A stretch of 64,000 nucleotides of DNA. Origin: Anaerolineaceae bacterium (lineage in GTDB: Bacteria; Chloroflexota; Anaerolineae; Anaerolineales; Anaerolineaceae). Of the stretch, positions 23,167 to 39,026 are shown one piece after another. Each line of letters begins with the position of its first letter. Positions within the stretch are counted from its first letter, which is position 1. The notes below the pieces were generated by a model. It ran no database searches and was not told the origin of the DNA. It saw only the letters and a list, made by a program, of their open reading frames with translations. The stretch spans positions 186,001-250,000 of the forward strand of contig JAURZL010000011.1 of the NCBI GenBank assembly GCA_030653365.1, given 5' to 3'. A program made the translations under genes and the position numbers.

Positions 23167-24197
23167 GTTAGTTTGGTTACGCATAGTTTTATTAAATCAT
23201 TTATATCTGCTGTAGCTAAACATTCAACTGTGTCAGCAGCACCATAATAAATCTTAACCTCTCCACTTTTTTCAAGTATCATACCGCCTGGGAACAATAC
23301 ATCATTACGAAATCCATTTCGCTCGTATGCATATTCAGGAACCATCAAGGGTTCTTTGCTCATACCTATTACCTTTGCTGGATTTTCCAAATCCAGTAAC
23401 ATGACTCCAACGGAATAACGTTTTTGCCAGATTTCCTCCCAGCCATTTTTACCTCTATTGGGATCACGGTCTACAGCATGAAATAATGTTAGCCATCCAT
23501 ATTTAGTTTTAATTGGTGGAGCTGCCGGGCCGATTTTATCATTGGCAAATGGAACCTGCTCCAGCCATAAAACTCCTTGATGGTTCCCCCAATATTTCAA
23601 ATCATCCGAATCCGAACACCAGATATCAAAATGGGTTTCCATTTGCCGGCTGTAAACTGGCATTGGTCGCTCGAGACGAATGTATTTTCCATAGATTTTT
23701 TCTGGAAAAAGGACCATATTTCTATTATCAGGTGTGGATAAACTGAGTACTTCAAAATGATGAAAGTCTGTAGTTCTCGCTGCACCTCCTCTTAATCCAT
23801 GACGGGTATCCAAAGCAAAACACATGTAGCAATGGCCTTCAATAACGGTAAGTCGTGGATCATAAGCGCGAAGAATTTCGTTCTCATTAGAATGATTAGG
23901 AAAAAATGTGGCGGTGTCTTTAATAACATCTTCTAAAGTCCAGATTGGTTTTGAATTCACTTTCCAATGAATTCCGTCAGTACTGGTAGCTAATCCCAGA
24001 TTAGTACCAACAAATTCAGGATTATCCCATTCACCAAAATCATTACGAAATACACACACATATTCACCTGAATAAAATGTGACACCAGCATTAAATACCA
24101 ATGTGGCTGGATATGGCACGTCGTGTCTTGTGAGAATCGGATTTTCAGGATGTCTCAATATTTTTGAATTGGAATGGAACAGAGATTCATTAAGCAT
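23163..24197 (-). CDS. GH130-family glycoside phosphorylase/hydrolase
   Basis: A 344-residue cytoplasmic five-bladed beta-propeller of family GH130, whose members phosphorolyse beta-mannosides (mannosyl-glucose, mannooligosaccharides) or hydrolyse them. Family blocks present are NPILTRHDVPYPATLVFNAGV with the catalytic-Asp region, FRNDFG, TSTDGIHW, AYDPRLTVIEGHCYMCF and the phosphate/sugar-site KIGPAAPPIKTKYGWLTLFHAVDR, ending VLFPGGMILEKSGEVKIYYGAADT. It is divergent from the ROK-led operon and coupled to the C39-like peptidase gene. No signal peptide. Mannoside specificity is inferred from the family only. Confidence 0.85.
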   Translation of the reverse strand: MLNESLFHSNSKILRHPENPILTRHDVPYPATLVFNAGVTFYSGEYVCVFRNDFGEWDNPEFVGTNLGLATSTDGIHWKVNSKPIWTLEDVIKDTATFFPNHSNENEILRAYDPRLTVIEGHCYMCFALDTRHGLRGGAARTTDFHHFEVLSLSTPDNRNMVLFPEKIYGKYIRLERPMPVYSRQMETHFDIWCSDSDDLKYWGNHQGVLWLEQVPFANDKIGPAAPPIKTKYGWLTLFHAVDRDPNRGKNGWEEIWQKRYSVGVMLLDLENPAKVIGMSKEPLMVPEYAYERNGFRNDVLFPGGMILEKSGEVKIYYGAADTVECLATADINDLIKLCVTKLT

Positions 24198-24465
24198 AGG
24201 TTTTTTAGGTTTAATTTAATTTGTGAATATGAATCGGTTAAGAAAATTTTTTTGCCTTATGTTTTCTATTAGCTAATTGTATCTAATCCTGCGAAAAGAG
24301 TAAAAAAGTCTGGAGGGGTTTCAGATAAATCGTATTATTGTGCCCCCATTTTATTTTTGACACAAAATTACAATTTACATAGAAAAGAACTTGACGCTGA
24401 TTCTACCCGGGTATATAATTAGTTAATCAATTTAATTAATTATTTGTTATTCCCCTGGAGCCAAC

Positions 24466-25704
24466 TTGGGCAGTAATCAAGTTACCGCAAAATCCCATAA
24501 TATTCGTTCCATTTTGAAAGCTTTGCTCTACCATCAACAAATTTCTCGGGTTGAGTTGGCTAAGTTTACGAGCCTGACGCCGGCAACAATCAGTAATCTG
24601 GTGAATGAATTATTATCGCAGGGATTGGTTCGGGAAAATGGAATTGAAATGGTGATTTCCCCACGTGTTGGTCGCCCGAGAATGACTGTCGAACTCATCC
24701 AGGATGCTCGTTTTGCGGTCGGGGTTCATATTGGAATTGGGGAGTATCAGATTGTTATTACAAATCTATTAGCAAATATTATCTTCTCCACAACACGGAA
24801 ATTTGAAGTATGTTCACCAGCTGAGATTATTATTCAAGAGATTGTAACCCAGATTGATAACTTGATTGTACAGTCTGGGATTACGAAAACTTTGATTGTA
24901 GGAATTGGGGTTGGAGCTTCTGGTCTGGTGAATGTTGAAACTGGTGTGAATATCAACGCACCTAATTTGTGTTGGAATCACATTCCCATTCGTGAATTGA
25001 TTCATCAAGGAACCGGATTACCGGTTATTGTGGACAATAACGTTCGATTGATGTGCCTGGCAGAAGCGATGTTTGGGGAAGGTAAAACCGCCAATGTGAT
25101 GGCTTTTGTATATGCCAGAGTGGGGGTCGGCGCTGGTTTATTTGTTAGTGGAAAATTGTTTCGTGGCATGGCTGCTGGGGCAGGAGAAATCGGGCATAGC
25201 ATTATGATCCCGGATGGTGGAGAAAAATGCAGTTGTGGTAATTATGGTTGTCTGGAAACATTGGTATCACAGAAAGCAATCATAAGATCCGCAAAGCACT
25301 TGGCAGAAGCAAACCCAGCTGGTATCCTGGCACAAAAATTTGATGATTGTCAAACTAGTGAAATGGATTGTGTGTTTTCAGCTGCTAAGGATGGAGATGA
25401 AGAAGTCTTACAAATGTTTGCAGAAAAAGCAAGATATTTTGGCATTGCACTAGCAAATTTAATCAATATTCTAAATCCCAATTTGATTGTGTTAGGCGGG
25501 ATACTGGGTCAGGGGGAAGAATACTTTTTGCCGGAGATCAAGAAGGTTGTAAAGGATTATTCTTTCAGTCACCTAGGAGACCAGGTTAAGATCTGTGTAT
25601 CAGGATTTGGGCAGAAAACCGGCGTTATCGGTGCTTCTGCGTTAGCCTTAAGTACATACTTTTATAACCTCAGTGAAATTCCAGAACAGGAGAAGAGTTT
25701 TTGA
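24466..25704 (+). CDS. ROK family transcriptional regulator
   Basis: A 412-residue repressor of the NagC/XylR type. Residues ~8-70 are a winged helix (ISRVELAKFTSLTPATISNLVNELLSQGLV); the ROK sugar-sensing domain follows with VGVHIG, IGVGASGLVNVETGV, PVIVDNNVRLMCLAEAMFGEG, GAGEIGHS and the zinc motif CSCGNYGCLET. The start is TTG, preceded by CTGGAG. It leads the operon for the isomerase, transketolase and GH31 genes and overlaps the isomerase gene by TTGA, so it is probably an autoregulated local repressor responding to the pathway sugar. It also could act on the divergent GH130 promoter across the 268-base gap. Confidence 0.92.
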   Translation: MGSNQVTAKSHNIRSILKALLYHQQISRVELAKFTSLTPATISNLVNELLSQGLVRENGIEMVISPRVGRPRMTVELIQDARFAVGVHIGIGEYQIVITNLLANIIFSTTRKFEVCSPAEIIIQEIVTQIDNLIVQSGITKTLIVGIGVGASGLVNVETGVNINAPNLCWNHIPIRELIHQGTGLPVIVDNNVRLMCLAEAMFGEGKTANVMAFVYARVGVGAGLFVSGKLFRGMAAGAGEIGHSIMIPDGGEKCSCGNYGCLETLVSQKAIIRSAKHLAEANPAGILAQKFDDCQTSEMDCVFSAAKDGDEEVLQMFAEKARYFGIALANLINILNPNLIVLGGILGQGEEYFLPEIKKVVKDYSFSHLGDQVKICVSGFGQKTGVIGASALALSTYFYNLSEIPEQEKSF

Positions 25705-27032
25705 GAACTATTGCATTAATTCCCATAGCAAGAACAACTTTTGATGTTCCATATGCATCAGAAATATTCCAGAGAACACAAACTGCTTTATTACAGGCTG
25801 GATTTGATCTCTCTGGTCCTTCAGAACTGGTGACAGATTCCTCAAAAGTAAATGAAATTATTCATCAAATGAACGCAGCCCATTACGATTTGATCATTTT
25901 GTTATATTGCTCATTCGCTGATAGTGATTTAGCAAAACAAATCGTCAATGACACTGCTGGCCCGGTTTTACTATGGGCAGTTCCGGAAGTTCCGGGTGGA
26001 GGAAGGCTGCGATTAAATTCTCTGTGTGGCATTAATCTTACAGGACACTCTTTGCACCGTGCAGGACACACCTATGATTATTTGTACGGTGTGCCAGAGG
26101 ATTTAGCAGCCATTGAAAAAATTAAGGTTTTAGCAAATGCAGGTTATACCATCAGAACTTTGAAAGAAACAAAAATTGGCAAATTTGGACACCATCCAAA
26201 TGGCTTTGACAGTTGTATCCCAAATCAAACAGGATTGGAAAATGTTTTTGGTTTGGAGGTAGTTCAAATAGAATTGGACAATTTGTTTAACCGTGTCAGG
26301 AAAATATCTGACGATTCAATCGATCATTTACGGGAGGATCTGCATAAAAGATTGGATGGCCTGGGTGATCTTGATCAGGCATCCTTAAATGACACGTTAA
26401 AAACTTATCAGGTCATGCAGGAATTCTCACAGGAAGAGAATTTGAAAGGTTTGGCTGTACGGTGTTGGCCAGAATTTTTTACTGAGTTAGGATGTGCAGC
26501 CTGCGGTGCTATGTCACTGATGTCCGATCAACGCATACCATGTAGTTGTGAGGCTGATTTGAATGGAACCGTTACCCAACTGATCTTACAAACACTGAGT
26601 GGTGAACCTGCATTTGGAACAGATCTGGTTCACATGAATTTAGATGAAGATACAGCTGTATTCTGGCATTGTGGTTTGGCCCCATTGTCCATGGCAGATC
26701 CCAAAGTGAAACCTCGTGGGATTGTTCATACCAACCGGAAATTACCATTATTAATGGAATTTTCACTAAAGCCTGGAGAAATCACGCTTGCCCGATTAAG
26801 TGAAGCCTCCCTCGATTTTCAATTGGTGATTGGAAAAGCAAACATGTTAGAGTCCGAAAGACAATTCTCAGGCACTTCGGGATTGGTGCGATTTGAAAAT
26901 TCTTCCAGAAAGGTTTTGGACACCATCATGACCAATGGATTAGAGCACCATCTTTCCCTTACTTATGGAAATTTTACAGCTGAATTGGAAACGATTGCAC
27001 GTTATCTTAGGATACCTACACTTGAATTATAA
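25701..27032 (+). CDS. L-fucose/L-arabinose isomerase-like protein (candidate sulfoquinovose isomerase)
   Basis: A 443-residue protein of the FucI/AraA-related isomerase family (COG2407 type), which interconverts aldoses and ketoses with a bound metal. Typical blocks are LLYCSFADSDLAKQI, LLWAVPEVPGGGRLRLNSLCGINL, VRCWPEFFTELGCAACGAMSLMSD, PCSCEADLNGTVTQL and FWHCGLAPLS. It starts at TTG overlapping the ROK stop (TTGA) behind CAGGAG. In transaldolase- and transketolase-type sulfoglycolysis the first step, sulfoquinovose to 6-deoxy-6-sulfofructose, is carried out by an isomerase of this broad family. No sugar kinase follows, in line with an unphosphorylated product. An ordinary pentose or deoxyhexose substrate is the alternative. 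Confidence 0.8.
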   Translation: MRTIALIPIARTTFDVPYASEIFQRTQTALLQAGFDLSGPSELVTDSSKVNEIIHQMNAAHYDLIILLYCSFADSDLAKQIVNDTAGPVLLWAVPEVPGGGRLRLNSLCGINLTGHSLHRAGHTYDYLYGVPEDLAAIEKIKVLANAGYTIRTLKETKIGKFGHHPNGFDSCIPNQTGLENVFGLEVVQIELDNLFNRVRKISDDSIDHLREDLHKRLDGLGDLDQASLNDTLKTYQVMQEFSQEENLKGLAVRCWPEFFTELGCAACGAMSLMSDQRIPCSCEADLNGTVTQLILQTLSGEPAFGTDLVHMNLDEDTAVFWHCGLAPLSMADPKVKPRGIVHTNRKLPLLMEFSLKPGEITLARLSEASLDFQLVIGKANMLESERQFSGTSGLVRFENSSRKVLDTIMTNGLEHHLSLTYGNFTAELETIARYLRIPTLEL

Positions 27033-27052
27033 GAATTTGGAGGATTCATAGA

Positions 27053-27871
27053 ATGTTGGACGAAAAAACCCTTATAGAATTAACTGAGAAGGCAAAAGAA
27101 ATCAGAGCGCTAACCATTGATGCCATTGGTTATCTGGGTGTTGGGCACTTAGGCGGTTCTATGTCGGTCGTAGAAGTACTTACCATGTTATATTACCGAC
27201 ATATGGATGTTGATCCCACCAATCCACGCAAATTGGATCGGGATCAACTGGTCTTATCCAAAGGACATGCTGGTCCAACCCTTTATAGTGTGTTGGCTGA
27301 TAAGGGGTACTTTTCCAAGGATTGGTTACATACACTCAATCAGGGGGGCACCCGATTACCCAGTCACTGTGATCGAAATCTTACACCTGGAATTGATATG
27401 ACCACTGGTTCCCTGGGCCAGGGGTTATCAGCCGCGATCGGTATTGCACTCAGTCATCGATTGGATGGAATCTCCAGCAAAATCTTTGTCATTATTGGTG
27501 ATGGTGAATCAAATGAAGGTCAGGTCTGGGAAGCTGCACAAGCTGCTGCACAGTTCAAACTACATCATATTATCGCTTTCACCGACTACAACAAATTACA
27601 ACTTGATGGTTTCATGCATGAAATCATGAACATTGAAGATCTGACTGCTAAATGGGTAAGTTTTGGTTGGTTTGTTCAAAGAATCAATGGTCATGATCTG
27701 GCACAGATTGACTTGGCTATCGAAAGAGCAAAAAAAGAGCCTTTGAGACCATCGATGATTGTTATGGATACGATCAAAGGGAAAGGTGTCGATTTTGCTG
27801 AAAATCAGTCTACCAACCATAATATGAAATTGGATTATGAGACTGCTCTTGCAGTTATTGCAAAATTATAA
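27053..27871 (+). CDS. Transketolase N-terminal subunit
   Basis: A 272-residue thiamine-diphosphate-binding half of a split transketolase. The pyrophosphate/metal motif is GDGESNEGQVWEAA (~150-163), and the upstream GHLGGSMSVVEVL, LSKGHAGPTLYSVLADKGY, HCDRNLTPGIDMTTGSLGQGL blocks supply active-site His residues. It pairs with the C-terminal subunit gene 17 bases downstream. Split transketolases are common in anaerobes; here the pair sits in a sugar operon without kinase. In the sulfo-transketolase route such a pair removes two-carbon units from 6-deoxy-6-sulfofructose onto glyceraldehyde 3-phosphate. TTTGGAGGATTCATAGAATG supports the start. Confidence 0.93.
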   Translation: MLDEKTLIELTEKAKEIRALTIDAIGYLGVGHLGGSMSVVEVLTMLYYRHMDVDPTNPRKLDRDQLVLSKGHAGPTLYSVLADKGYFSKDWLHTLNQGGTRLPSHCDRNLTPGIDMTTGSLGQGLSAAIGIALSHRLDGISSKIFVIIGDGESNEGQVWEAAQAAAQFKLHHIIAFTDYNKLQLDGFMHEIMNIEDLTAKWVSFGWFVQRINGHDLAQIDLAIERAKKEPLRPSMIVMDTIKGKGVDFAENQSTNHNMKLDYETALAVIAKL

Positions 27872-27888
27872 ACATGCAAGGAGAAAAA

Positions 27889-28848
27889 ATGAGTGATCAA
27901 TTAGAAATGCGTGCTGTATATACAGAAACTCTTTTGAAGTTAGGACAGATGGATGAACGGATTGTTCTGTTAGAAGCAGATCTCATGCGAGCGACTGGCT
28001 CTAAAAACTTCAAAGATGAATTTCCCCATCGAACATTTAATGTAGGTGTTGCAGAAGCGAATATGGTCAGTATTTCTGCTGGGCTTTCTTCCGCCGGGAA
28101 AATACCTTTCGCCAATACATTTGCATGTTTCGCGGCCCGGAGAACCTATGACCAATTTTTTATTTCAGCCAATTATGCCAGACTTAATGTCAAGCTGGTT
28201 GGTAGTGACCCAGGAGTCACAGCTGCGTTAAATGGTGGTACCCATATGGCTTTTGAAGATATGGGAATTATGAGAACAATCCCTAAATTAGTCGTTTTTG
28301 AACCCAGTGATCCCATCTCATTAAAAAAACTTTTGCATGCTTGTGTTGAGCATTATGGATGTACCTACATGCGTTTACACCGTGGTTTTGCTGATGTTTT
28401 ATATGATGAAACAGATGATTTTGAATTGGGAAAAGGGAAAATATTACGGCAGGGTCAGGATGTAGCGCTGATTGCTACAGGCGTTGTTATGGTAAGTGAA
28501 GCCTTGAAAGCTGCTGAAATACTTGCTGATAAAGGTATTTCTGCTACTGTTGTTGATATGCATACCATTAAACCAATTGATCGAAACCTGGTCATTCATC
28601 TTGCAGAGACCTGTAGTGCAATTGTTACCTGCGAAAATCATCAAATTGTTAATGGGCTTGGCTCAGCTGTTGCTGAAGTTCTTGGAGAGGAAATTCCAAC
28701 ACCAATGCTGCGTGTTGGGGTGAAAGATCTTTTTGGTGAGGTAGGTTCTCTTGATTATCTCAAAGAGAGGTTTGGATTGACAGCAACAGTAATTGTTGAG
28801 CATGCTGAACAAGTCCTGGAAAAGAAAAAATCCGAATTAAAAATCTAA
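27889..28848 (+). CDS. Transketolase C-terminal subunit
   Basis: A 319-residue pyrimidine-binding half and C-terminal domain of the split transketolase. The catalytic Glu lies in FNVGVAEANMVSISAGL (about residue 54), the substrate-site His in GGTHMAFEDMGIMR, and an Arg in CTYMRLHRG that in phosphate-using enzymes helps bind the donor phosphate. The upstream ATG at 27874 (MQGEK) overlaps the ribosome-binding site; AAGGAGAAAAAATG makes 27889 the start. Its TAA overlaps an ATG at 28848 (TAATG) of the following isomerase gene. It forms the enzyme with the preceding gene product. Confidence 0.92.
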   Translation: MSDQLEMRAVYTETLLKLGQMDERIVLLEADLMRATGSKNFKDEFPHRTFNVGVAEANMVSISAGLSSAGKIPFANTFACFAARRTYDQFFISANYARLNVKLVGSDPGVTAALNGGTHMAFEDMGIMRTIPKLVVFEPSDPISLKKLLHACVEHYGCTYMRLHRGFADVLYDETDDFELGKGKILRQGQDVALIATGVVMVSEALKAAEILADKGISATVVDMHTIKPIDRNLVIHLAETCSAIVTCENHQIVNGLGSAVAEVLGEEIPTPMLRVGVKDLFGEVGSLDYLKERFGLTATVIVEHAEQVLEKKKSELKI

Positions 28849-28859
28849 TGGGAGAAATT

Positions 28860-29345
28860 ATGACCGAAAAAATAAGTATAGCCATTGCATCTGACCTTTC
28901 TGGTTTTCCTTTAAAACAGGCGATCGTTGATCACCTGATGCAAAGAGGAGATATTGAACTGCTTGATTTTGGGATTGATTCCGTTGACCAACCCAAACCA
29001 TATTTTGAGCAGGCTCCGAAAGTTTCTGAGGCAGTTCAAACTCAGCGTGTAGAAAAAGGGATATTGATCTGTGGAACAGGCCAGGGTATGGCAATTGTGG
29101 CCAATAAACATAAAGGAGTGTACGCCTGTGTGGTCGATGATATCTTTTCTGGAGAGAGAGCGAAAATTGTAAATAATGCCAATGTCATCACGATGGGTGG
29201 TTGGATAACGGCTCCTTTTCTCGGTACCCAAATTGTGGATGCCTGGTTAGGCATGGAATTCACACAAAAAATGGAATTCAAACGAGATTTTCTTGAAAAT
29301 GCATTTCGCCAGGTAAAGGTTCTCGAAGAAAAAAAATTCAAATAA
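28860..29345 (+). CDS. RpiB/LacAB-family isomerase lacking usual phosphate-contacting histidines
   Basis: A 161-residue RpiB/LacA/LacB fold protein. The catalytic Cys is C71 in GILICGTGQGM and the ring-opening/anion-hole residues of the CGTG loop are intact, so aldose-ketose isomerisation is expected. Two positions differ from E. coli RpiB as I remember it: the N-terminal DH is here DL (D12-L13), and the His before NDTNV is Val104 (IVNNANV). These His help bind or open a phosphosugar, so the substrate may carry a different anion. In sulfo-transketolase pathways an isomerase of this family converts 4-deoxy-4-sulfoerythrose to the ketose. GGGAG before 28860 favours this start over the overlapping ATG at 28848. 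Confidence 0.82.
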   Translation: MTEKISIAIASDLSGFPLKQAIVDHLMQRGDIELLDFGIDSVDQPKPYFEQAPKVSEAVQTQRVEKGILICGTGQGMAIVANKHKGVYACVVDDIFSGERAKIVNNANVITMGGWITAPFLGTQIVDAWLGMEFTQKMEFKRDFLENAFRQVKVLEEKKFK

Positions 29346-29422
29346 CTCGAACTGGAAATTTTTCTTCATCTTAACAAACCGAAATGGATTAGCCAACAAT
29401 TTACTTGAATTAGGAGTGAGAA

Positions 29423-31624
29423 ATGAAGGGTGAATATTTTAATCAAGAACCGATTCATGCACAAATTAGGTTTCAAAGAATTACATCTGTAAAGCCCAAC
29501 TATCCAATCCCTGGTGGTATGCGTTTCTACAGTGAACGTGGACCAATGGATGTTTATTTTTATGCTCCTGGTGTTATTCGGTTTAATTTTCAGGTAAAAG
29601 AAGTTTTCGATTATGGATTGTTGGTTGGTTGTAAGAATGATGTGGACAGTGAGCTGATCCATTCGAATTCATCTCTGATTATTCGATCAGGAGATGTAAC
29701 TGCCGAAATATTTTATTCGCCGTTCTCGATAAAAATTAAAAACGGAGATAAAAATCTTATTGAAAGTATTACTGATTTCGGAATGGAAGGAAAATCTCGC
29801 TTCCATCCCTTCTCTTACACTGAGGATAATTCCTGGCAGATATCTTTGGCCTTGAAAAGTGGTGAAGCAGTTTTTGGACTTGGGGAAAAATTTGGAAAAC
29901 TCAATCATCGTGGTGAATTGATAACCAGTTGGAATTATGATTCATTAGGGATAAATTCAGAGCGATGTTATAAAAATAATCCATTTGCCTGGTCTCCAGA
30001 AGGTTGGGGGCTATTGGTTCACACGCCTGGAAAAGTAATGCATGCTGTTGGTTACGCACCCTGGTCACACCGAAGTTACATTCTTCGAGTGGAAGATGCA
30101 AATCTGGATTTCTTCTTTTTTGTTGGCGATTCCCCAAAAGAGATTCTTAATAAATATACCGATCTTACCGGCAAGTCACCAGAATTACCTTTGTGGAGTT
30201 ATGGCCTTTGGATGGCAAGAGCCTATTACCAGACGGCGGATGAGCTACTGAATGTAGTACGAAAAATGCGTGAAAAACAAATCCCATTAGATGTAATTTT
30301 ATTAGATGGAAGAGCGTGGCACAAACTGGAAACTCGCTTTGATTTTTCCTGGGATCCAGATCGATATCCCGATCCAAAGGCTTTTATGAAACAACTGGCT
30401 GACCTTGAAGTTCGTTTATGTTTATGGGAATACCCTTACATATCAACATATAATCCATTATTCAGTGAATTGGCCAGTCTAGGATATTTATTAAAGAATA
30501 AAAATGGTTCACCTTATATCCATTATTGGACACCACCGCCTTATGAAACTTTGTTACCTCAATTGTCCCCTAGTGGGATTATCGATTTTACCAACCCCAA
30601 GGCATATGAATGGTATCGCGATCAACATAAAGACCTTTTTGAATTAGGTGTTGCATTAATGAAAACGGATTTTGGGGAGTCTGTCCCGGATGAGGTTGTT
30701 GCTCATAATGGTGATAGTGGAGAACGCCTCCATAATGTTTACACATTACTTTATAACCAATGTGTCTATGAAGCCACCAGGCTTTATGGTCATGGAAAGC
30801 CTATGGTTTGGGGGCGATCAGCTTGGACAGGTAGCCAACGCTATCCAATGGGCTGGGGCGGCGATCCCCAATCCGATTGGGAAGGTCTTGCAGCCAGTAT
30901 TCGCGGAGTTCAATCCTGGGGAATGAGTGGCGGCGCTTACTCTGCACATGATATTGGTGGCTGGTATGGAACACTCACGGATCCTGAATTGTTTGTGCGA
31001 TGGGCACAGGCAGGCGTTATGTGTTCCCATACTCGTTTTCATGGCGTTGGTGAACGTGAACCCTGGATATTTGGTCCAGAAGTAGAAGCAATCATCACTC
31101 AATGGATACGTTTTCGCTATCGTCTCATTCCTTATGTGCGCTGGTGTGAGAGAGAAGCTATTCAAAATGGTATTCCTGTCATGCGTTCTATGGTGTTGGC
31201 TTTTCCTGAGGATAAAGCAGCATGGGGATTTGAAGAACAATATATGCTTGGCAATTCCTTGCTGGTTGCGCCTATCATCCAACCAGCTGGCAATGTGGAT
31301 GTATATCTTCCGAAAGGCGATTGGTTTCATGTATGGAGTGGAGTCTGTTACAAAGGTGGGCAGGTTGTTTCTTTTAAGGATGTTTCAATCAATGAAATTC
31401 CTGTGTTTGGCAGGGTAGGAACTTGTTTGCCTTTGGGACCTGTTGTACAACACACCGGTCAATTAAAGGAAATTGAAGACATAGAAGAACTGTGGGTTTT
31501 TGGCGAACCTCAACCGGAATTGTGCCGTAATTTTGCTGATCTTAAATGGGAAACCGTAGATGGAAAAATCAAATTTATTCCTTCGCAAGGGGTAAAAGTC
31601 AAGCTATTTGAATCAGAAAAATAA
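29423..31624 (+). CDS. GH31 alpha-glycosidase, YicI (alpha-xylosidase) type
   Basis: A 733-residue family GH31 retaining enzyme. The nucleophile is D416 in LMKTDFGES and the acid/base D481 in WGGDPQSDWEG, the same spacing and surroundings as the alpha-xylosidase YicI; the substrate-pocket segment LDGRAWHKLETRFDFSWDP also follows YicI. It lacks the ADFGEYLP-type context of YihQ sulfoquinovosidases. An N-terminal beta-sandwich precedes the barrel and a C-terminal beta domain closes it. No signal peptide, so it acts on imported glycosides, presumably releasing the sugar handled by the upstream enzymes. Alpha-xylosidase is the most probable activity, but the neighbourhood leaves room for a sulfo- or deoxy-sugar glycoside. 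Confidence 0.85.
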   Translation: MKGEYFNQEPIHAQIRFQRITSVKPNYPIPGGMRFYSERGPMDVYFYAPGVIRFNFQVKEVFDYGLLVGCKNDVDSELIHSNSSLIIRSGDVTAEIFYSPFSIKIKNGDKNLIESITDFGMEGKSRFHPFSYTEDNSWQISLALKSGEAVFGLGEKFGKLNHRGELITSWNYDSLGINSERCYKNNPFAWSPEGWGLLVHTPGKVMHAVGYAPWSHRSYILRVEDANLDFFFFVGDSPKEILNKYTDLTGKSPELPLWSYGLWMARAYYQTADELLNVVRKMREKQIPLDVILLDGRAWHKLETRFDFSWDPDRYPDPKAFMKQLADLEVRLCLWEYPYISTYNPLFSELASLGYLLKNKNGSPYIHYWTPPPYETLLPQLSPSGIIDFTNPKAYEWYRDQHKDLFELGVALMKTDFGESVPDEVVAHNGDSGERLHNVYTLLYNQCVYEATRLYGHGKPMVWGRSAWTGSQRYPMGWGGDPQSDWEGLAASIRGVQSWGMSGGAYSAHDIGGWYGTLTDPELFVRWAQAGVMCSHTRFHGVGEREPWIFGPEVEAIITQWIRFRYRLIPYVRWCEREAIQNGIPVMRSMVLAFPEDKAAWGFEEQYMLGNSLLVAPIIQPAGNVDVYLPKGDWFHVWSGVCYKGGQVVSFKDVSINEIPVFGRVGTCLPLGPVVQHTGQLKEIEDIEELWVFGEPQPELCRNFADLKWETVDGKIKFIPSQGVKVKLFESEK

Positions 31625-31739
31625 GGATGAGGTGATTTACTTCAATCAGTAAGGTGAATTTTTGGTAAGAAACAGAATTAAATTGGAGCAAGACGTTCTT
31701 AAAAAAGAAAAATGATTTGAGTGGACGGAAAGGAAGATA

Positions 31740-33584
31740 ATGGTAATTTCAGGCAAATATCTGCGTGTTAATCTCTCAAAGAGAGAAGTGAAAACAGAGT
31801 ATATTCGTGAAGAAGATGCACGTCGTTATTTTCTTGGCAGTGGTTATGCAGCTATGCTTTATGCCAAAGAAATAGATCCAACGGTTGGAGCATTGGACGA
31901 GGAAAATTCGCTGTATATTTTTAATGGATTAACAACCGGATCGATTTTCTCAACTGCATGTCGGATTAGTTTTTGTGGTAGGAGCCCGCTAACCGGAATT
32001 TGGAATGAATCCAATCTGGGTGGTCATTTTGGCGCAGAATTGAGAAAAGCAGGTGTAGATGGACTGGTTATCAACGGAAAAGCAGATCAACCTGTTTATC
32101 TTTTTGTACATGATGGAGAAGTGGAAATTCGTTCTGCCAAACACCTATGGGGGCTGGACACTTTCGACACGTATGATCAATTGATCAATGAAACACATCA
32201 AAAAGCGAGAGCAGCTGTGATTGGACCAGCTGGTGAGAATTTGGTCGCGTTTGCAGCAGTGCTTCAAGGTGGTCGCACGCATAGTCGCGCTGCGGGCAGA
32301 GGTGGCATGGGTGCGGTTTTGGGTAGTAAACTGGTTAAAGGTATTGTTGCTTATGGCAAGGAAAAGGTAGAACCAGCGGATCCAAAACTATTCCATGTTT
32401 TAGTAAAACAACAAAATCCTGTTATTCAAAGTAAAACAGTTGGTTTATCAAAATTTGGCACAGCAGGTGGCGTTCCAGCTGCAGAAGCAATTGGTGATTT
32501 ACCGATTCATAATTATCTGGTTGGAAATTGGCCAGAAGGTGCGGATAAAATAAGTGGTCAAAGTCTGGCAGAACAACATACGGTAAAACAAACATTTTGT
32601 TTTGCCTGCCCAATTGGTTGTGGTAAAAGAGTCGATGCGGTATTGAAGGATGGTACTACGATTCAAGGAGAAGGTCCTGAGTATGAAACGTTAGCAGGGC
32701 TGGGCGCGATGCTGGAGATTGACGATCTGGACACGATGTTAAAAGCAAATGACTTTTGCAATCGGATGGGCATCGACACAATCAGTGCTTCAGCAACCGC
32801 TGCTTTTGCTTTTGAAGCTTATGAAAATGGCCTGATTCAAAAAGAAGATTGTGAACAGCAATCTTTAGAATGGGGTAACCCGGATTCGTTGATGGTTTGT
32901 TTAAGATTGATGGTTGAGCGTCGTGGGGTTGGAGAGATCCTTTCATCAGGATCAAGGGCTGCAGCCGATCATTTTCAAAATCAATCTGAGGAGTATGCAA
33001 TTCATGTAAAAGGTCTGGAATTGGCTTATCATGATCCACGAGCTACGTTTTCCATGGCAGCTAATTATGCAACTGCCAACCGCGGTGGTTGTCACCTGGA
33101 AGGTATGTCTCAATGGAGTATATTTGGATTAGATGCTTCCTCTTGGTCACCTAAGAAAGTCGATCGCTTCTCCAGTGAAGACGCTGCTCAAGAAGCAGTG
33201 GCCTTCCAAAATTATTTTTCCACCTACAACCCACTGGGTATTTGCAAATTTATAGGAAAGTCCAGCCCGAGCCCACAATTACTGAGCGATTTAATCAACG
33301 CAGCCACAGGCTGGGATATTACGGATGAAGAATTATTGGAAACTGGTGAACGAATTTTTAACTTGAAACGGATCATCAACAATCACCTGGGAATTTCCCG
33401 CAAAGACGACGATCTCCCTCTGCGACTTAAAACTTTTGCTCGTCCATCTGGTGGGTCAAAAGGTAAATTGCCCAATATGGATATTATCCTGAGGGATTAT
33501 TACACTTTGAGAGGGTGGACTGAACAGGGTCAGCCCAATCAGGAGACAATAACACGCTTAGAACTTACCTCATTTGTAAAGTGA
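31740..33584 (+). CDS. Aldehyde:ferredoxin oxidoreductase (tungstopterin AOR family)
   Basis: A 614-residue AOR-family enzyme oxidising an aldehyde to the acid while reducing ferredoxin. The [4Fe-4S] ligands are C287-x2-C290-x3-C294 (CFACPIGC) and C502 (GICKF), nearly the positions of the Pyrococcus enzyme; the tungstopterin motifs RISFCGRSPLTGIWNESNLGGHFGAELRKAG and SRAAGRGGMGAVLGSK are intact. It needs W or Mo and is oxygen-sensitive, so anaerobic metabolism is implied. It follows the GH31 gene by 115 bases in the same direction. In the sulfoglycolysis reading it would oxidise sulfoacetaldehyde, capturing low-potential electrons; this substrate is inference. Confidence 0.93.
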   Translation: MVISGKYLRVNLSKREVKTEYIREEDARRYFLGSGYAAMLYAKEIDPTVGALDEENSLYIFNGLTTGSIFSTACRISFCGRSPLTGIWNESNLGGHFGAELRKAGVDGLVINGKADQPVYLFVHDGEVEIRSAKHLWGLDTFDTYDQLINETHQKARAAVIGPAGENLVAFAAVLQGGRTHSRAAGRGGMGAVLGSKLVKGIVAYGKEKVEPADPKLFHVLVKQQNPVIQSKTVGLSKFGTAGGVPAAEAIGDLPIHNYLVGNWPEGADKISGQSLAEQHTVKQTFCFACPIGCGKRVDAVLKDGTTIQGEGPEYETLAGLGAMLEIDDLDTMLKANDFCNRMGIDTISASATAAFAFEAYENGLIQKEDCEQQSLEWGNPDSLMVCLRLMVERRGVGEILSSGSRAAADHFQNQSEEYAIHVKGLELAYHDPRATFSMAANYATANRGGCHLEGMSQWSIFGLDASSWSPKKVDRFSSEDAAQEAVAFQNYFSTYNPLGICKFIGKSSPSPQLLSDLINAATGWDITDEELLETGERIFNLKRIINNHLGISRKDDDLPLRLKTFARPSGGSKGKLPNMDIILRDYYTLRGWTEQGQPNQETITRLELTSFVK

Positions 33585-33641
33585 ATTGGTCAAAAATTTC
33601 TTGTGATAAAACTTTCTACGTAATTGTTTTCAAAGGAAAAA

Positions 33642-34385
33642 ATGGAAATAATTAGTGATAATAGTATATTACCCATATTGATTGGACTTATTCTTTTTTT
33701 TGCTACGATGGTTCGTTCCGTTTTTGGATTTGGGGGTGGGTTAATTGCAATGCCCTTGTTAACTTTAGTAATTGGTGTTCAAACAGCTGCTCCTATCGCT
33801 GCTGCTTTAAATACATTCAATGCTTTGTTTATTTTGCTATTTAGTTGGCGGAAAGTGGACATCAGCATTGCCTGGCGATTAGTTCTGGCATCCTTGTTTG
33901 GGATTCCCTTAGGGCTTTTATTACTCACCAAGGTGTATGAAGCGTTGGTTACCGGCATCCTGGCGGTCGTTATCATCATTTTTTCTGTGTACAATTTAAT
34001 CAAACCACAGGTGAAAGCCAGGGTGAACAAACACACCGCTTATATATTTGGTTTTTTTGCGGGGATATTGGGGGCAGCGTACAACGCGAATGGACCTCCT
34101 GCAGTAATTTTTGGAACGCTTCGAAAATGGCCAGCTGACTCATTTCGTGCTACGCTGCAAGCATATTTCTTTCCTGTAGGGATCATTATCCTTCTTGGTC
34201 AAGGAGCCACTGGCTTGATCACTGAGGAGGTGATTCGATATTTTTGGATATTGGTTCCCATGTTTTTCATAGGCTTATTTGTGGGCGATAAGATCAATCG
34301 CTCGATGACAGTATCTTCTTTCGAGCGAGGTGTCCATCTTTTCTTAATTGCAACTGCTATTGTGATGCTTATAAAAATATTTTAA
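33642..34385 (+). CDS. TSUP (TauE/SafE) family anion exporter
   Basis: A 247-residue integral membrane protein with 7-8 helices and the TSUP repeat signatures FGFGGGLIAMPLL (first half) and FFAGILGAAYNANGPPAVI (second half). The family includes exporters or importers of sulfite, sulfoacetate, sulfolactate and other organosulfonates. A TTG at 33624 is in frame, but AAAGGA just before ATG 33642 marks the start. It is the last gene of the plus-strand operon, 57 bases behind the AOR. A TSUP protein next to an isomerase-transketolase set is a known pattern in sulfoglycolytic clusters and would export the C2 sulfonate end product. Confidence 0.85.
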   Translation: MEIISDNSILPILIGLILFFATMVRSVFGFGGGLIAMPLLTLVIGVQTAAPIAAALNTFNALFILLFSWRKVDISIAWRLVLASLFGIPLGLLLLTKVYEALVTGILAVVIIIFSVYNLIKPQVKARVNKHTAYIFGFFAGILGAAYNANGPPAVIFGTLRKWPADSFRATLQAYFFPVGIIILLGQGATGLITEEVIRYFWILVPMFFIGLFVGDKINRSMTVSSFERGVHLFLIATAIVMLIKIF

Positions 34386-34479
34386 GCAGATGAGAGTTGA
34401 TCGATTATTCTCTATTTGAATTGCACCTGTGAAAGGTAAATTTCAAGGTTGCGATCCTCAAACCCATGAATTTTGTGTT

Positions 34480-36861
34480 TTAATTCCGAACCTTTGCTGA
34501 CATTCCTTCCGGGCAGGAAATATTTAAAAGGCGTGATTCTCCGGATGGGAGAATAATCTCAAAATTTTTATATGGTGGTTGATATCCATTATGACCGTAT
34601 TGGATATCCAGATCAATTTTTATTGGCGATGAGGTTAGTTTCAGGTAAATTTCCGTAAATTCACCCTCTTTATATTTCATACTGACTCCATCATCCTCTA
34701 CCAATAATGTAGTTCGTTTACTTTCACCTGAATCTGGGAATATATATAAAAGACGAATATCATCGGGCTTTTCACCAACAAAGCGCATATCCTGCATTTG
34801 TGGTATGACGGATCCAGCAATAACCATTAGAGGAATGTGTTCCAGTGGCGCAGGAAGCCGAACGGTTTGTCCTCCTTCATAAATACATCCCGTGCGGAAA
34901 TCCACCCAATTTTGACCTTTTGGTAAATAAATCTGTCGGGTGCGCTGTTGAGGTTCCAATGCGGAGGCAACCAATAAATTTGGACCGACCATAAAATCGA
35001 AGGACTCTTGATGGCAATTTTCATCGTCAGGAAATTGGTAAACTAATGGACGAATAATGGGGATTCCATTTCGGTAGGCTTCAAAAAACTGAGTGTAAAG
35101 GTAAGGTATGAGCCGATACCTGAATTGAATGGTCTCACGAATAATAGGTAGAATTTCTGCATGCATCCAGGGGGTATTAGCAGTGCCATCAGTGTTCCAC
35201 GAATGAATGGTAAATCGAGGGTGAAAGATTCCATTCTGTACCCAACGGACAAATAACTCAGCAGATGGCCGGGGACCAGTAAAACCACCAATATCATGTC
35301 CGGTATTCGGGAAGCCAGAAAGACTCAGGCCCAGCCCCATAGGAATATTGTAACGTAACGTATTCCAGGACGTCTCATTGTCACCGGACCAGGTTTGGGC
35401 ATATCTTTGTGTTCCCGGTGATGCGCTTCTAGAGAGTAGAAATGGTCGTTTCTCAGGCGCATTAGCACATTGTGCTTTGAGTGAGCTTCTCACCATTAAG
35501 TATGGTTGTAATGGCCGAATATGTTTAATTTTGATTTCTTCTCCAAAACCAAAACATTTCGCATCGTCATCCCAAATAGGGTACTCATTGTTATCGTTCC
35601 AGGTAGCGTCAATCCCATAATCCAATAACCATTTTTGCACATTGGAGCTCCACCAATTGAAAGTGGTTGGATTTGTAAAATCGAGATGGGAACCATAACC
35701 ATCCCAGAAGTAATCCAAACGAGGCTTTTCACTTTCGGAGTCTTTTATAAATCCACCAAATCCGGTTACTTCATCAAATAGGGGATGACTCTTCAGCAGG
35801 CAGGGTTTGATGTTTGCAGTTAAATGAACACCAGCCTGATGAAAATCATCAACCATTTTGTGAGGATCTGGAATCTTTTCAAAATTCCAGTTGAATACGT
35901 ATCGTTTACCATCTGCTCCTGAACCATAACCTGAGGAGAGGTGAAACATATCGCATGGAATTTGGTGTTTTTCGCAATCGGTGATGAATTCGTTTAATGC
36001 TTCCTGTGCATTCTCTGCGTCGGTATACAGCATACTGGAAGCTAAATAACCCAATGACCATCGGGGAGGTAAAGCTGGATGTCCTATCAGTTTGGAAAAT
36101 TTATGAACCACATCAGAAATTTGAGGACCAAAGATTAAGTAATAATCAAGGTCTCCTGTTTCTGCCTGGTAGTAGCGGTAGGGTCCATAATAATTATCTC
36201 GCTCCTGACCCAAATCAAATATGGACGTACTGAGATTGTCATAGAATAATCCATATGCGAGATTCAAACCTGGAACATAGGTAATATAAAAGGGAATATG
36301 TTTATATAAGGGATCCCCAATCTCGGCGTCATAACCCAGAGCATCCAGATTAAGCATTCTTATTCTGCGGCCGTATTTATCCAGTGGACCGGATCTTTCT
36401 CCAAATCCGTAATAATGTTCATCTGGACGTCTTTCTAAATAATGAGAGACAGTCTCACCATTTTGATCGTACGAATATGCCCGCCTCCTCAGGTCTGAAG
36501 CAAAGATTTTTCTCTCTGGATAAGTACACCAGGTAAGACTCCCATCTTCTGTGTCAATTTCCACCTGCATTATCGCTGTGGATACCAGAACTTTGTCATT
36601 AATTTTGGAAATTTTGTTAGCAGGCAATTGAAAAGAACTTAAATCTCCCCTTGAACGACCTTCCAATGGCACATCACCATCTTGATCAGCAATTGACCAT
36701 GTGCGCTTTAAGCGAGGATATCCATCAGGAAAATGCTGCACACGGATGATATCTTCTTCAAGAACCGTAATTTGAAAGGTTTCCTGATGATTTCCTTTAA
36801 ATTTCAGTCCCTGCAATGATGTTTCCTGGATGTTTAGAGGGCTAGGTTGAATAATTCGCAT
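34480..36861 (-). CDS. GH31 alpha-glucosidase-like glycosidase
   Basis: A 793-residue GH31 enzyme of the alpha-glucosidase branch. The nucleophile segment is ATWNDNNEYPIWDDD (usually WNDMNEP) and the acid/base lies in TWSGDNETSWNTLRYN; HDIGGFTG and FRYRLIPYLYTQFFEAYRNG are also family-typical. The N-terminal sandwich contains GFGERSGPLDKYGRRIRMLNLDALGY, as in intracellular alpha-glucosidases. The C terminus has a beta domain with FVGEKPDDIRLLYIFPDSGES. No signal peptide. It closes a minus-strand operon with the sugar ABC importer and LacI regulator, so it probably splits the imported oligosaccharide. It is convergent with the TSUP gene, 94 bases apart. Confidence 0.88.
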   Translation of the reverse strand: MRIIQPSPLNIQETSLQGLKFKGNHQETFQITVLEEDIIRVQHFPDGYPRLKRTWSIADQDGDVPLEGRSRGDLSSFQLPANKISKINDKVLVSTAIMQVEIDTEDGSLTWCTYPERKIFASDLRRRAYSYDQNGETVSHYLERRPDEHYYGFGERSGPLDKYGRRIRMLNLDALGYDAEIGDPLYKHIPFYITYVPGLNLAYGLFYDNLSTSIFDLGQERDNYYGPYRYYQAETGDLDYYLIFGPQISDVVHKFSKLIGHPALPPRWSLGYLASSMLYTDAENAQEALNEFITDCEKHQIPCDMFHLSSGYGSGADGKRYVFNWNFEKIPDPHKMVDDFHQAGVHLTANIKPCLLKSHPLFDEVTGFGGFIKDSESEKPRLDYFWDGYGSHLDFTNPTTFNWWSSNVQKWLLDYGIDATWNDNNEYPIWDDDAKCFGFGEEIKIKHIRPLQPYLMVRSSLKAQCANAPEKRPFLLSRSASPGTQRYAQTWSGDNETSWNTLRYNIPMGLGLSLSGFPNTGHDIGGFTGPRPSAELFVRWVQNGIFHPRFTIHSWNTDGTANTPWMHAEILPIIRETIQFRYRLIPYLYTQFFEAYRNGIPIIRPLVYQFPDDENCHQESFDFMVGPNLLVASALEPQQRTRQIYLPKGQNWVDFRTGCIYEGGQTVRLPAPLEHIPLMVIAGSVIPQMQDMRFVGEKPDDIRLLYIFPDSGESKRTTLLVEDDGVSMKYKEGEFTEIYLKLTSSPIKIDLDIQYGHNGYQPPYKNFEIILPSGESRLLNISCPEGMSAKVRN

Positions 36862-36928: not shown

Positions 36929-37981
36929 TTAACCTTTCATGCCTGTTGAGGAAATTCCTGTGGTGATGTATTTTTGAAGGAAAGCAAATACCAGTGTGAT
37001 AGGCAACAAAGTCATAACTGTCATGGCCAGAATATAATTCCACTTTACATTTAATTCGCCCTGGAAGGAATTTAAACCCACCTGTAAAGTGAATAATTCA
37101 TTTTGGCTCAGTACAATCAGTGGCCACAGAAAATCATTCCAGCGCCACATCACCGAAAATATGGTTAATACAGCCAATGCCGGAGCTGCCAGTGGCAGCA
37201 TTACCTGCCAATAGATGCGCCATTCGGATGCGCCATCAATTCTTGCGGCTGCAATCAACTCATCAGGAATGGTTAACATGTATTGGCGTAACAAGAACAC
37301 CCCAGTAGGTGTGGCAGCACCGGGAATAATCACGCCCCAAAGGTTGTTATTCATGTTCAATTCAGTAATGACTAAGAAGACCGGAACAAGGATAACAGAA
37401 ATGGGGATGAGCAGGGTGCTGATGATGATTACATAAACCAGGTTACGACCTTTGAACTCATATTTACTCAATGCAAAAGCCGCCATACTATTGATAATCA
37501 ATGTGATAATCGTAGCTAATGCAGTCACGATCACACTATTGTTGAGATATTTTAAGAAATTGAAACTCTTAAGAGAGTCTGAATAATTTGACCATTCTAA
37601 GCTTAGACTTTTCGCAGGTGTCCGATCATTAATATTGACTTTAATAATTTCACCTGGATTTACCGGATCAATCAATTGAGACTCAATCCCAATGCGGCGA
37701 ACTTGAGCTAACCTTGCCTGGGAACCGTCCGGAAGGTTGACATCAAATAAAGGTAATGGTTCGTCGTATCCTTCCACCATCACAGAATCTTGCCCATAAG
37801 GCAGAAGCGAAGGTGGAAATTCCACCAAAGCTGCTGGTGTCTTTAGTGATGATAAGACCAGCCATAGAACCGGTCCGAACATGAGAAAAATACCAAAGAT
37901 TAGATATAAATACGATAGAAAATCGGAGATTGAGAATCTCCTGGGGTTACGTGTACGAGTGAGGAAGCGTTTGATATCCAT
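36929..37981 (-). CDS. Carbohydrate ABC transporter permease (MalG-like) with large periplasmic insert
   Basis: A 350-residue inner-membrane permease of the CUT1 family. The EAA loop that docks the ATPase is EWRIYWQVMLPLAAPALAVL near residue 245, with the usual GASEW. Six helices are predicted. Between the first helix (~25-45) and the next (~140) lies an extracytoplasmic insert of about 85 residues (LPYGQDSVMVEGYDEPLPLFDVNLPDG) that MalG-type proteins mostly have in shorter form. It ends with the typical QKYITTGISSTGMKG. AAAGGTAAACCTGATG gives the start. It works with the next upstream permease and the binding protein; no ATPase gene is in the cluster, so a shared MsmK/UgpC-type ATPase is expected. 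Confidence 0.9.
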   Translation of the reverse strand: MDIKRFLTRTRNPRRFSISDFLSYLYLIFGIFLMFGPVLWLVLSSLKTPAALVEFPPSLLPYGQDSVMVEGYDEPLPLFDVNLPDGSQARLAQVRRIGIESQLIDPVNPGEIIKVNINDRTPAKSLSLEWSNYSDSLKSFNFLKYLNNSVIVTALATIITLIINSMAAFALSKYEFKGRNLVYVIIISTLLIPISVILVPVFLVITELNMNNNLWGVIIPGAATPTGVFLLRQYMLTIPDELIAAARIDGASEWRIYWQVMLPLAAPALAVLTIFSVMWRWNDFLWPLIVLSQNELFTLQVGLNSFQGELNVKWNYILAMTVMTLLPITLVFAFLQKYITTGISSTGMKG

Positions 37982-37997
37982 CAGGTTTACCTTTCTA

Positions 37998-39026
37998 TCA
38001 CACTGCGTCGGATTTACGGGACAGGTACAGTTGAAGGAGGGTGAAGACCATTAATACAGCTGCCATAATCACCGATGCAGCTGCTGCCAGACCGAAAATG
38101 TGGATCTGGTCTGAGAATCCTTTATTGTAAATGTATTGCACCATGTAAAGGGTCGCTGATCCAGGTCCACCACCTGTGAGAACATAAACCTGGTCGAAGA
38201 CCTGTACAGCTCGAATCAAGGAGAGAACCAAAACAACTAACATGGTTGGCATCAACAACGGCAAAGTGATATGTTGAAAACTTTGCCATTCATTGGTACC
38301 GTCCATGGAACCCGCTTCATAAAGGTCAGGTGGAATAGATTGCAATCCTGCCAGTAAGATCAATGTAAAAAAGCCCATGTTGGCCCATATGCTGATGAAA
38401 ATTACCCAGAAAGTAGCCCAATCAGAATTTAAGAGAAAATTTATCCGTTCACCACCCATACCAATGATCAAAGCGTTCAGAAGACCATCTCGTTGTAAAA
38501 TCCATTTCCAGATAAGTGCAACGACAACTGGAGAAAGTAATACAGGATAAAAATAAACACTGCGGAAAAAACCTCGAGCGACGATTTTGCGATTGAGGAT
38601 CAATGCTGTAATTAATGAAAATAAAACAATACCGACAACCTGAAAGATAACAAATTTTATTGTGTTGTAAACCGCTCGCCAGAAAAGATCCTCAGTACAG
38701 GTATTTGGGTCTAAGAAATTATCACAGGTAAAGAGAACACGGAAGTTATCTAAACCCACAAATGGACGATCTTGAGGAAATAAATTTGTACCACCAGTAA
38801 AGGAGTAATAAATGTTTACGAGCATGGGGAACAATACAAAAATTCCAAAAATTACCATGTTTGGCAACAAAAACACATATGCCATGCGTTTCATGCCGAT
38901 TTTTCTTTGAATCGGATCCATTATCCAATCGAGAGCATTAATTACAAGGCTCAACAAAGCATTCATCATATTCCCAAAGAAATCTTTGATGGTCTTTGAA
39001 ACATTATTTTTTTGTTTTTGCTCCAT
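37998..39026 (-). CDS. Carbohydrate ABC transporter permease (MalF-like)
   Basis: A 342-residue six-helix permease of the CUT1 family. The EAA loop is NEWQSFQHITLPLLMPTMLVV (~235), preceded by YEAGSMDGT. An N-terminal ~50-residue cytoplasmic extension (GNMMNALLSLVINALDWIMDPIQRKIGMKR) comes before the first membrane helix. A predicted periplasmic loop contains two Cys (FTCDNFLDPNTCTEDLF) that could form a disulfide. GGAGACATAGATG supports the start. It lies 16 bases upstream of the second permease gene and 70 downstream of the binding-protein gene, an ordinary sugar-importer layout. Confidence 0.92.
   Translation of the reverse strand: MEQKQKNNVSKTIKDFFGNMMNALLSLVINALDWIMDPIQRKIGMKRMAYVFLLPNMVIFGIFVLFPMLVNIYYSFTGGTNLFPQDRPFVGLDNFRVLFTCDNFLDPNTCTEDLFWRAVYNTIKFVIFQVVGIVLFSLITALILNRKIVARGFFRSVYFYPVLLSPVVVALIWKWILQRDGLLNALIIGMGGERINFLLNSDWATFWVIFISIWANMGFFTLILLAGLQSIPPDLYEAGSMDGTNEWQSFQHITLPLLMPTMLVVLVLSLIRAVQVFDQVYVLTGGGPGSATLYMVQYIYNKGFSDQIHIFGLAAAASVIMAAVLMVFTLLQLYLSRKSDAV

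Follow-up and report, generated by a model that had tools for sequence, protein, structure and literature searches.

A probable sulfo-transketolase operon with a candidate aldehyde:ferredoxin oxidoreductase end in an Anaerolineae genome

Sulfoquinovose (SQ) is abundant in plant and algal membranes. The sulfo-transketolase (sulfo-TK) pathway of Clostridium sp. MSTE9 was reportedly described by Liu et al. in 2021, and its sulfoacetate variant, with SqwD and SqwKL, is said to have been described by Chu et al. in 2023. Here we analysed a 64,000-nucleotide stretch of DNA from an Anaerolineaceae bacterium (GCA_030653365.1, contig JAURZL010000011.1, positions 186,001 to 250,000; hereafter the window), in which eight co-directional genes at 24466-34385 (plus strand) very probably encode the core of such a pathway in a genus of the Anaerolineae (Chloroflexota), and probably the whole of it, including an end through an aldehyde:ferredoxin oxidoreductase (AOR). 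According to the available part of one review, SQ is a sulfur-containing sugar made at about 10 billion tons per year (PMC12890257). The MSTE9 pathway consists, in the accessible sections of two reviews, of SqvD, SqwGH, SqwI, SqwF and SqwE (PMC9594981, PMC12890257), and the variant leading to sulfoacetate employs SqwD and SqwKL (PMC12890257). As far as the same excerpts go, sulfo-TK occurs in Firmicutes, Spirochaetes and Thermotogae, with Tenericutes added for the sulfoacetate variant, and ends in isethionate or sulfoacetate via an alcohol dehydrogenase or via the pair of acylating dehydrogenase and CoA ligase (PMC12890257); a further excerpt gives the end products as isethionate, or sulfoacetate and ATP (PMC12965863). 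For Chloroflexi, the accessible review sections cite the sulfo-transaldolase (sulfo-TAL) pathway, not sulfo-TK (PMC9594981, PMC12890257).

Compared by description, the operon shares with the MSTE9 system an isomerase, a split transketolase, an RpiB-family isomerase, an exporter and the lack of a kinase, but it has an AOR in place of an SqwF-type iron alcohol dehydrogenase (Fe-ADH), a glycoside hydrolase of family 31 (GH31) that is not of the YihQ type, and an isomerase of a Chloroflexota clade. With the SqwD/SqwKL variant it shares the predicted formation and export of sulfoacetate, whereas one ferredoxin-linked AOR step would stand in for the acylating dehydrogenase and ADP-forming CoA ligase, and this last step would give no substrate-level ATP. 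The sulfo-TAL loci of Chloroflexota (isomerase, sulfofructose (SF) transaldolase, SuyAB and a GH4-type glycosidase) have the same isomerase clade, ROK regulator and ABC importer, and those of family f53 the same AOR subfamily; in the window, transketolase and an SqwI-like protein replace their transaldolase.

An earlier note on this DNA had described the eight genes as overlapping or closely spaced and had read them as a sulfo-TK operon. All its open reading frames (ORFs) and family assignments held, and the core of its pathway was supported by the groupings of the isomerase, the transketolase N-subunit (TK-N) and the RpiB-like protein. That note had given the AOR and the GH31 no role; it is in a ferredoxin-linked end, in the GH31 and in a hybrid origin that the present results are new, the core route being already known. 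The gene order ROK-isomerase-TK-N-TK-C-RpiB-GH31-AOR-TSUP (TK-C, transketolase C-subunit) was complete in three further genomes (L095, L096 and L098; loci and genomes carry our own L and G numbers), and the arrangement is therefore not due to chance. It was kept in L094 up to GH31, where the contig stops, and in part, with gene losses or order differences, in L097 and L153.

In the proposed route, an ABC importer would bring in SQ or SQ-glycosides, and the GH31 would release SQ. The isomerase, of AraA/FucI fold, would convert SQ to sulfofructose, and the split thiamine-diphosphate (ThDP) transketolase would transfer C1-C2 to glyceraldehyde-3-phosphate, giving xylulose-5-phosphate and 4-deoxy-4-sulfoerythrose. 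The latter would be turned into sulfoerythrulose by the SqwI-type isomerase, and the transketolase would then take a second C2 unit off sulfoerythrulose, leaving sulfoacetaldehyde, so that a sugar kinase would be unnecessary in the whole route. Finally, the AOR would oxidise sulfoacetaldehyde to sulfoacetate with the electrons ending in reduced ferredoxin, a step that differs from the described pathways, and the TSUP protein would export the sulfoacetate.

Core enzymes of the predicted pathway

The SftI/SqvD-like isomerase (25701..27032, PF02952) matched NF048012, the model of the SQ isomerase SftI, at 345 bits over residues 3-440, that is, over its full length. A fold model placed it in the AraA/FucI type, and a phmmer search of the PDB with it gave no match. 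In a tree made by a quick method from 69 of 113 filtered rows, with neither AraA nor FucI of E. coli among them, it fell into a 29-row clade with Chloroflexota isomerases, among them those of sulfo-TAL loci (SH-aLRT 100). The 49 loci of these clade isomerases contained homologues of SF-transaldolase (17 loci), the GH4-type glycosidase (15) and SuyB (12). The transaldolase of L053, which adjoins an isomerase that is among the closest beyond the window's genus, had its best matches in the PDB entries 8bc3 (BmSF-TAL), 8bc4 and 8bc2 (249-253 bits, against 168 for the entry ranked after them). These results suggested that the enzyme is an SQ isomerase, as found in sulfo-TK.

Some isomerase loci held further genes. 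An isomerase paralogue of the same genome (L090:8989-16678; 26% identity, 180 bits on NF048012) stands in a cluster that also holds a PfkB-looking kinase and a GH31, and probably belongs to a different sugar pathway. LarA-type racemase genes were observed with transaldolase or SuyB-type genes in L040, L085 and L086, based on the LarAH5 (nickel-dependent malate racemase) model in L040 and on clustering in L085 and L086, and possibly encode a sulfolactate racemase.

The isomerase gene is followed by the SqwG-like TK-N (27053..27871, PF00456) and the SqwH-like TK-C (27874..28848, PF02779/PF02780) of a putative sulfofructose transketolase, and by the RpiB-like protein (28848..29345, PF02502), a candidate SqwI-like 4-deoxy-4-sulfoerythrose isomerase, matching the two-subunit SqwGH and the PF02502 member SqwI of sulfo-TK. 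A contig scan with three SqwI-like query sequences gave 76 loci, mostly of Spirochaetota, with others of Chloroflexota, two of Verrucomicrobiota, one of Clostridiales and two unplaced, across which the RpiB-like protein showed 56-93% identity. TK-C was found nearby in 70/76 and TK-N in 65/76. A GH31 with at least 40% identity over at least 300 residues to E. coli YihQ was present in 29/76, and in none of the Chloroflexota SqwI loci. Eight chosen GH31 proteins (L128, L146, L157, L166, L116, L108, L169 and L111) were 42-54% identical to YihQ and kept Q288, W304 and Y508 in 8/8 and R301 in 7/8; the YihQ-type model (cut-off 553 bits) gave 916 bits for L128 and 969 for L146, with E. coli YihQ at 1246. 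These residues and scores indicated that the SqwI clusters holding such genes are SQ clusters.

Trees of the RpiB-like protein and of TK-N were built from 40 rows each, with non-Chloroflexota transketolase-locus rows sampled (22 each); L058 and L074, as duplicates of L097 and L153, were omitted from all trees. The RpiB-like protein lay within the SqwI clade, which a long branch separates from RpiB (97/100), and TK-N was nested in the sulfo-TK clade (97/96; bootstrap not settled in this tree), apart from housekeeping transketolases. The seven Chloroflexota TK-N rows clustered together (97/92). In the RpiB-like tree the Chloroflexota rows did not form one clade, L098 pairing with a Spirochaetota row and L153 being unplaced.

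The residues point the same way. The catalytic Cys (C66 of E. coli RpiB) was kept in 77/77 SqwI sequences, H10 was replaced by L in 76/77, H99 by V or I in 77/77 and R133 by M in 77/77; the window's protein has L17, V108 and M142 at these positions, unlike a sugar-phosphate RpiB. We take H10 and R133 of RpiB to bind phosphate and H99 to open the ring, the residue roles in TktA, YihQ and FucI being presumed likewise. An open-chain C4 sulfonate as substrate would be consistent with this loss of residues for ring opening and phosphate binding. H461 and D469 of TktA were replaced by D and N, respectively, in 69/71 SqwH sequences, and the window's clade-typical TK-C carries both changes; the aligned ThDP-enzyme residues were retained in its TK-N. 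In agreement with the earlier note, inspection by eye of the ORFs of at least 100 aa at 17.5-42.1 kb, some of which were also scanned with models, revealed no sugar kinase, nor was a xylulokinase or fuculokinase seen by eye in the locus.

Related modules were noted elsewhere. Adjoining the operon of L096 (HGW-Chloroflexi-10), a second split-transketolase module (L096:10173-15133, minus strand) holds a Gfo/Idh-looking gene, TK-N (41%), TK-C (42%), a 213-aa RpiB/LacAB-looking protein and a SauS-like dehydrogenase of the acylating sulfoacetaldehyde type (576 of 600 bits), and may serve another sulfonate or sugar pathway. In L242 and L243 (G749 and G624, of the window's family), a divergent RpiB-like gene (29-30%) has two TK-N-type genes in its vicinity, and a scan of viral contigs gave two RpiB-like matches at 35-36%. 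Behind the exporter of the Spirochaetota sulfo-TK cluster L128, a DUF4867 (PF16161) gene (L128:12367-13086, plus strand) may, as a guess, encode the SQ mutarotase SqvB.

Terminal oxidoreductase, exporter and glycosidase

Among the 76 SqwI loci, the terminal module was Fe-ADH in 30, a SauS-like dehydrogenase and/or CoA ligase without AOR in 32, AOR in 3 and none in 11. All three genes were present in 24 of the 32, ligase only in four, dehydrogenase only in three, and the dehydrogenase with one ligase in one. Fe-ADH never shared an SqwI locus with another terminal module. Eight of the 11 loci with none have less than 3.1 kb downstream, and L112, L115 and L153 have 10 kb. One representative per terminal cluster was identified and cluster membership was checked: the Fe-ADH of L128 belongs to PF00465, the dehydrogenase of L136 matched NF047625 at 496 of 600 bits, and the proteins of L144 and L135 are succinate-CoA-ligase-like. 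The window operon contains neither SqwF nor SqwD with SqwKL, with an AOR there instead, and was for that reason filed as a sulfo-TK variant.

The AOR (31740..33584, PF02730/PF01314) is of the tungsten type, with 228 bits for AFOR_N and 400 bits for AFOR_C, and matched the Pyrococcus furiosus enzyme (1AOR) over its full length at 415 bits. The Cys, Glu and His positions of 1AOR are conserved, including the [4Fe-4S] ligands Cys 287, 290 and 294 (CxxCxxxC) and the fourth Cys, in NPLGIC; unlike that of the P. furiosus enzyme, the context here predicts a sulfonated aldehyde. A search of the class with this AOR gave 74 matches in 69/396 genomes. Five relatives at 54-59%, all from one family (G239, G355, G380, G349 and G229), were accompanied by SuyAB; four of them (L261, L053, L262 and L057/L325) also shared a contig with SF-transaldolase, SQ isomerase or the ABC genes that accompany the isomerase, and the fifth (L260) had SuyAB alone. 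Among the other 68 matches, all less similar and not counting the window's own, 15 of which lie on stretches of less than 8 kb, 0/68 were near a homologue of SQ isomerase, SF-transaldolase, SuyAB, the GH4-type glycosidase or SqwI; one, L320, had a weak transketolase match (62 bits). With the window, L095, L096 and L098 added to the five relatives, the subfamily stood beside sulfosugar or sulfolactate genes in 9/9 loci. In the AOR tree, the AORs of transketolase loci and of L053 formed one clade (100/100), and the nine included paralogues from the window's genome fell outside it; that genome (G000) has 11 matches to the C-terminal AOR family, a high number for a single genome. Remoter AOR groups also occurred in isomerase loci, at about 30% in L034 and L040 and at 32-35% in L085-L087. 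These associations make it rather likely that the AOR is a sulfoaldehyde:ferredoxin oxidoreductase acting on sulfoacetaldehyde, the candidate terminal enzyme. A report of an AOR within a sulfo-TK pathway was not found in open-licence full text.

Next to the AOR lies a TSUP/TauE gene (33624..34385; PF01925, 105 bits), whose SqwE-like product is a candidate sulfoacetate exporter. A TSUP gene also stands after the sulfo-TK genes in L128, in keeping with the TSUP type of SqwE. The genome search gave no convincing SF-transaldolase (21 bits) and, in a search that had no positive control, no SuyB match, so the sulfonate is probably exported.

The GH31 gene (29423..31624, PF01055) retains the catalytic Asp positions and the GH31 fold family of E. 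coli YihQ and YicI, and its product formed a separate clade (100/100). Its subfamily was found in 4/396 class genomes (E 1e-150 or better), always on a contig with an SQ isomerase: besides the own genome, the distance was about 3.2 kb in G285, 0.7 kb in G189 and about 8 kb in G031. The Lys and Arg of the motif LDGxAWxKxxTRF were kept in 7/7 sequences. No YihQ- or GH4-type gene was present in the window operon; L153 (as L074) lacks this GH31 and has a GH4-type gene. Taken together, a sulfoquinovosidase of a non-YihQ subfamily is the somewhat favoured assignment for this protein.

Several candidate identities were discarded. The residues exclude YihQ itself, and with the YihQ-type model NF007746 none of the genome's GH31 proteins passed (best 295 of 553 bits), in a run where the E. 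coli control also fell below the cut-off. R305, which aligns to YihQ R301, was dropped as a sign of sulfonate binding because the MalA-like second GH31 of the window (GH31b) also has R there. A GH188 identity of the GH4-type glycosidase of L074 was not borne out, its PDB matches being GH4-type entries only.

Alternative readings

Several observations weigh against the proposed route. The isomerase is below the curated cut-off of NF048012 (345 vs 700 bits), a value reached by 0/396 class genomes; L128, a YihQ-bearing cluster, has an isomerase that scored only 196 bits. The GH31 is without Q288, W304 and Y508 of YihQ, R301 alone being matched. The nine AOR loci amount to two lineages, a genus with four of the loci and a family whose five genomes supply the rest. 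In the transaldolase clusters L053 and L262 the AOR is not the sole candidate, since an NAD-type aldehyde dehydrogenase is encoded there too, and L153 has transketolase genes and TSUP but, over 10 kb, neither an AOR nor an Fe-ADH nor an acylating module. In L096, the SauS-like dehydrogenase on the strand opposite to the AOR could catalyse the step proposed for the AOR. The window's own genome has a weak match to a SarD-like Fe-ADH (202 of 700 bits), which could make isethionate instead. A further point comes from the 2,3-dihydroxypropane-1-sulfonate (DHPS) cluster of Desulfovibrio sp. DF1. In the excerpt available, its AOR was DHPS-inducible and co-encoded with sulfolactaldehyde genes, and had been proposed as a second sulfolactaldehyde oxidase; the recombinant enzyme, produced in E. 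coli, was inactive on sulfolactaldehyde, lactaldehyde and acetaldehyde (PMC6278857). The window resembles that cluster in encoding an AOR with sulfonate-aldehyde genes and differs in SQ rather than DHPS and in a C2 rather than C3 sulfonate, the two AORs being likened by description only (PMC6278857, accessible part).

The co-occurring NAD-type dehydrogenases, the inactive DF1 enzyme, the 11 AOR matches and the SarD-like protein favour a reading in which sulfo-TK holds and the AOR is not terminal: reduction of sulfoacetaldehyde would give isethionate, or an unlinked dehydrogenase would oxidise it, and the AOR would act on some other aldehyde. In the window, however, the AOR stands between SqwI and the exporter, near the position that Fe-ADH or SauS/CoA-ligase genes occupy in 62/76 loci, and its subfamily is tied to sulfosugar and sulfolactate genes; we consider this reading unlikely.

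It is more doubtful still that the same pathway logic serves a sulfosugar other than SQ, for example sulfofucose or a derivative of SQ. Sequence cannot tell SQ from its epimers, the GH31 is not YihQ, and the isomerase, 50-89% identical to those of Chloroflexota transketolase loci, is just 26-30% identical to the 13 other transketolase-locus isomerases aligned, which are non-Chloroflexota; sulfofucose catabolism exists, according to the section of the source available (PMC12421959). Still, the isomerase shares its clade with isomerases adjoining SF-transaldolase, and another paper, in its accessible text, lists a representative SQ gene cluster that includes a GH188 homologue from Chloroflexi (PMC10755693).

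Use of alpha-xylosides or pentoses, with the GH31 as alpha-xylosidase, the isomerase on xylose or arabinose, a kinase elsewhere and AOR and TSUP as passengers, draws on the AraA/FucI fold and on a GH31 that is nearest to YicI (weak support, 82/85) and has alpha-xylosidase (NF007940, 497 bits) as its best NCBIfam model, but was rejected as very improbable given that this score is under the cut-off of 606, that the GH31 subfamily is near SQ isomerase in 4/4 genomes, that phosphate residues are lost in SqwI style, that transketolase and SqwI fall with their counterparts from YihQ-bearing clusters, that TSUP and AOR are retained in relatives, and that no kinase was seen in the locus.

Control region, surroundings and origin

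The ROK-family regulator gene opens the operon with a TTG start (24466..25704; PF00480, 181 bits), and a ROK homologue was found in 32/49 SQ-isomerase loci. A sigma-70-like promoter, TTGACG-17-TATAAT (24391..24419, plus strand, 11/12 matches), lies upstream of it. It ranked first among the 41 promoter-like sites of 24100-41800, where the number of sites was no higher than in shuffled sequence. The promoter is followed by an AT-rich near-palindrome (24423..24442, plus strand), a candidate ROK operator and the sole match in the window at three or fewer mismatches; the block of promoter and palindrome is recognisable in four relatives (L094, L095, L096 and L098). A role of this operator in controlling the ABC operon as well was unsupported, as the palindrome is present once in the window.

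Convergent to the operon, on the minus strand, lie GH31b (34480..36861), a family match and probable accessory, two ABC sugar permease genes (36929..39026) of a probable importer of SQ or SQ-glycosides, and an ABC solute-binding protein gene (39097..40503, PF01547). These genes were kept as neighbours in L095 at 78-85% (GH31b 85%), and relatives of GH31b were found near a divergent isomerase in L085 and L086. A homologue of the permease AP1 with at least 63% identity was present in 17/49 SQ-isomerase loci, and solute-binding protein homologues with up to 66% identity adjoin SQ isomerases. Retention in L095 and presence in 17/49 isomerase loci make import the likely role of the ABC genes. Beyond them, a LacI-looking gene was recognised by eye at 40610-41692, and a SAM riboswitch (42293-42393, minus strand, 86.8 bits) lies upstream of a 101-aa ORF at 41804-42109.

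The assembly that holds the window consists of 20 contigs, with contamination at 6.18%; a foreign contig is unlikely because the operon recurs in relatives. The match positions of L094, L095, L096 and L098 are identical to those of four genomes from the same genus as the window. Among the matches listed from 400 genomes of the order, the RpiB-like protein reached at least 80% identity in 5/8 same-genus genomes, and other RpiB-like matches at most 47%. In the trees, transketolase and SqwI lay among Spirochaetota, and the isomerase among Chloroflexota isomerases of sulfo-TAL loci. The operon thus appears to be a hybrid, in which a Chloroflexota isomerase/ROK/ABC chassis is combined with an SqwGHI module nested among Spirochaetota sequences. 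The simplest reading would be that a Chloroflexota SQ locus acquired the module; since the trees are unrooted, we infer the direction of the transfer.

A wider proposal remains tentative, at slightly less than even chances: a third, ferredoxin-linked form of sulfo-TK, with a sulfosugar-specific tungsten AOR and a third kind of sulfoquinovosidase, a GH31 beside YihQ and GH188. As part of it, the AOR subfamily might oxidise sulfoacetaldehyde, and sulfolactaldehyde in related transaldolase clusters, to the respective sulfonate acids, with both oxidations coupled to hydrogen or syntrophy; the GH31 clade would differ from YihQ in motif.

If the proposed pathway is correct, sulfo-TK would be extended to the Anaerolineae. 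Formation of the C2 sulfonate would then yield low-potential electrons, linking sulfosugar turnover to hydrogen and syntrophy, and the finding would be relevant to the AOR, so far unexplained, in the sulfonate metabolism of Desulfovibrio, as presented in the available excerpt (PMC6278857). A non-YihQ GH31 sulfoquinovosidase, if confirmed, would bear on SQ-pathway genomes without a known sulfoquinovosidase, a gap stated in the accessible part of a recent source (PMC13219744).

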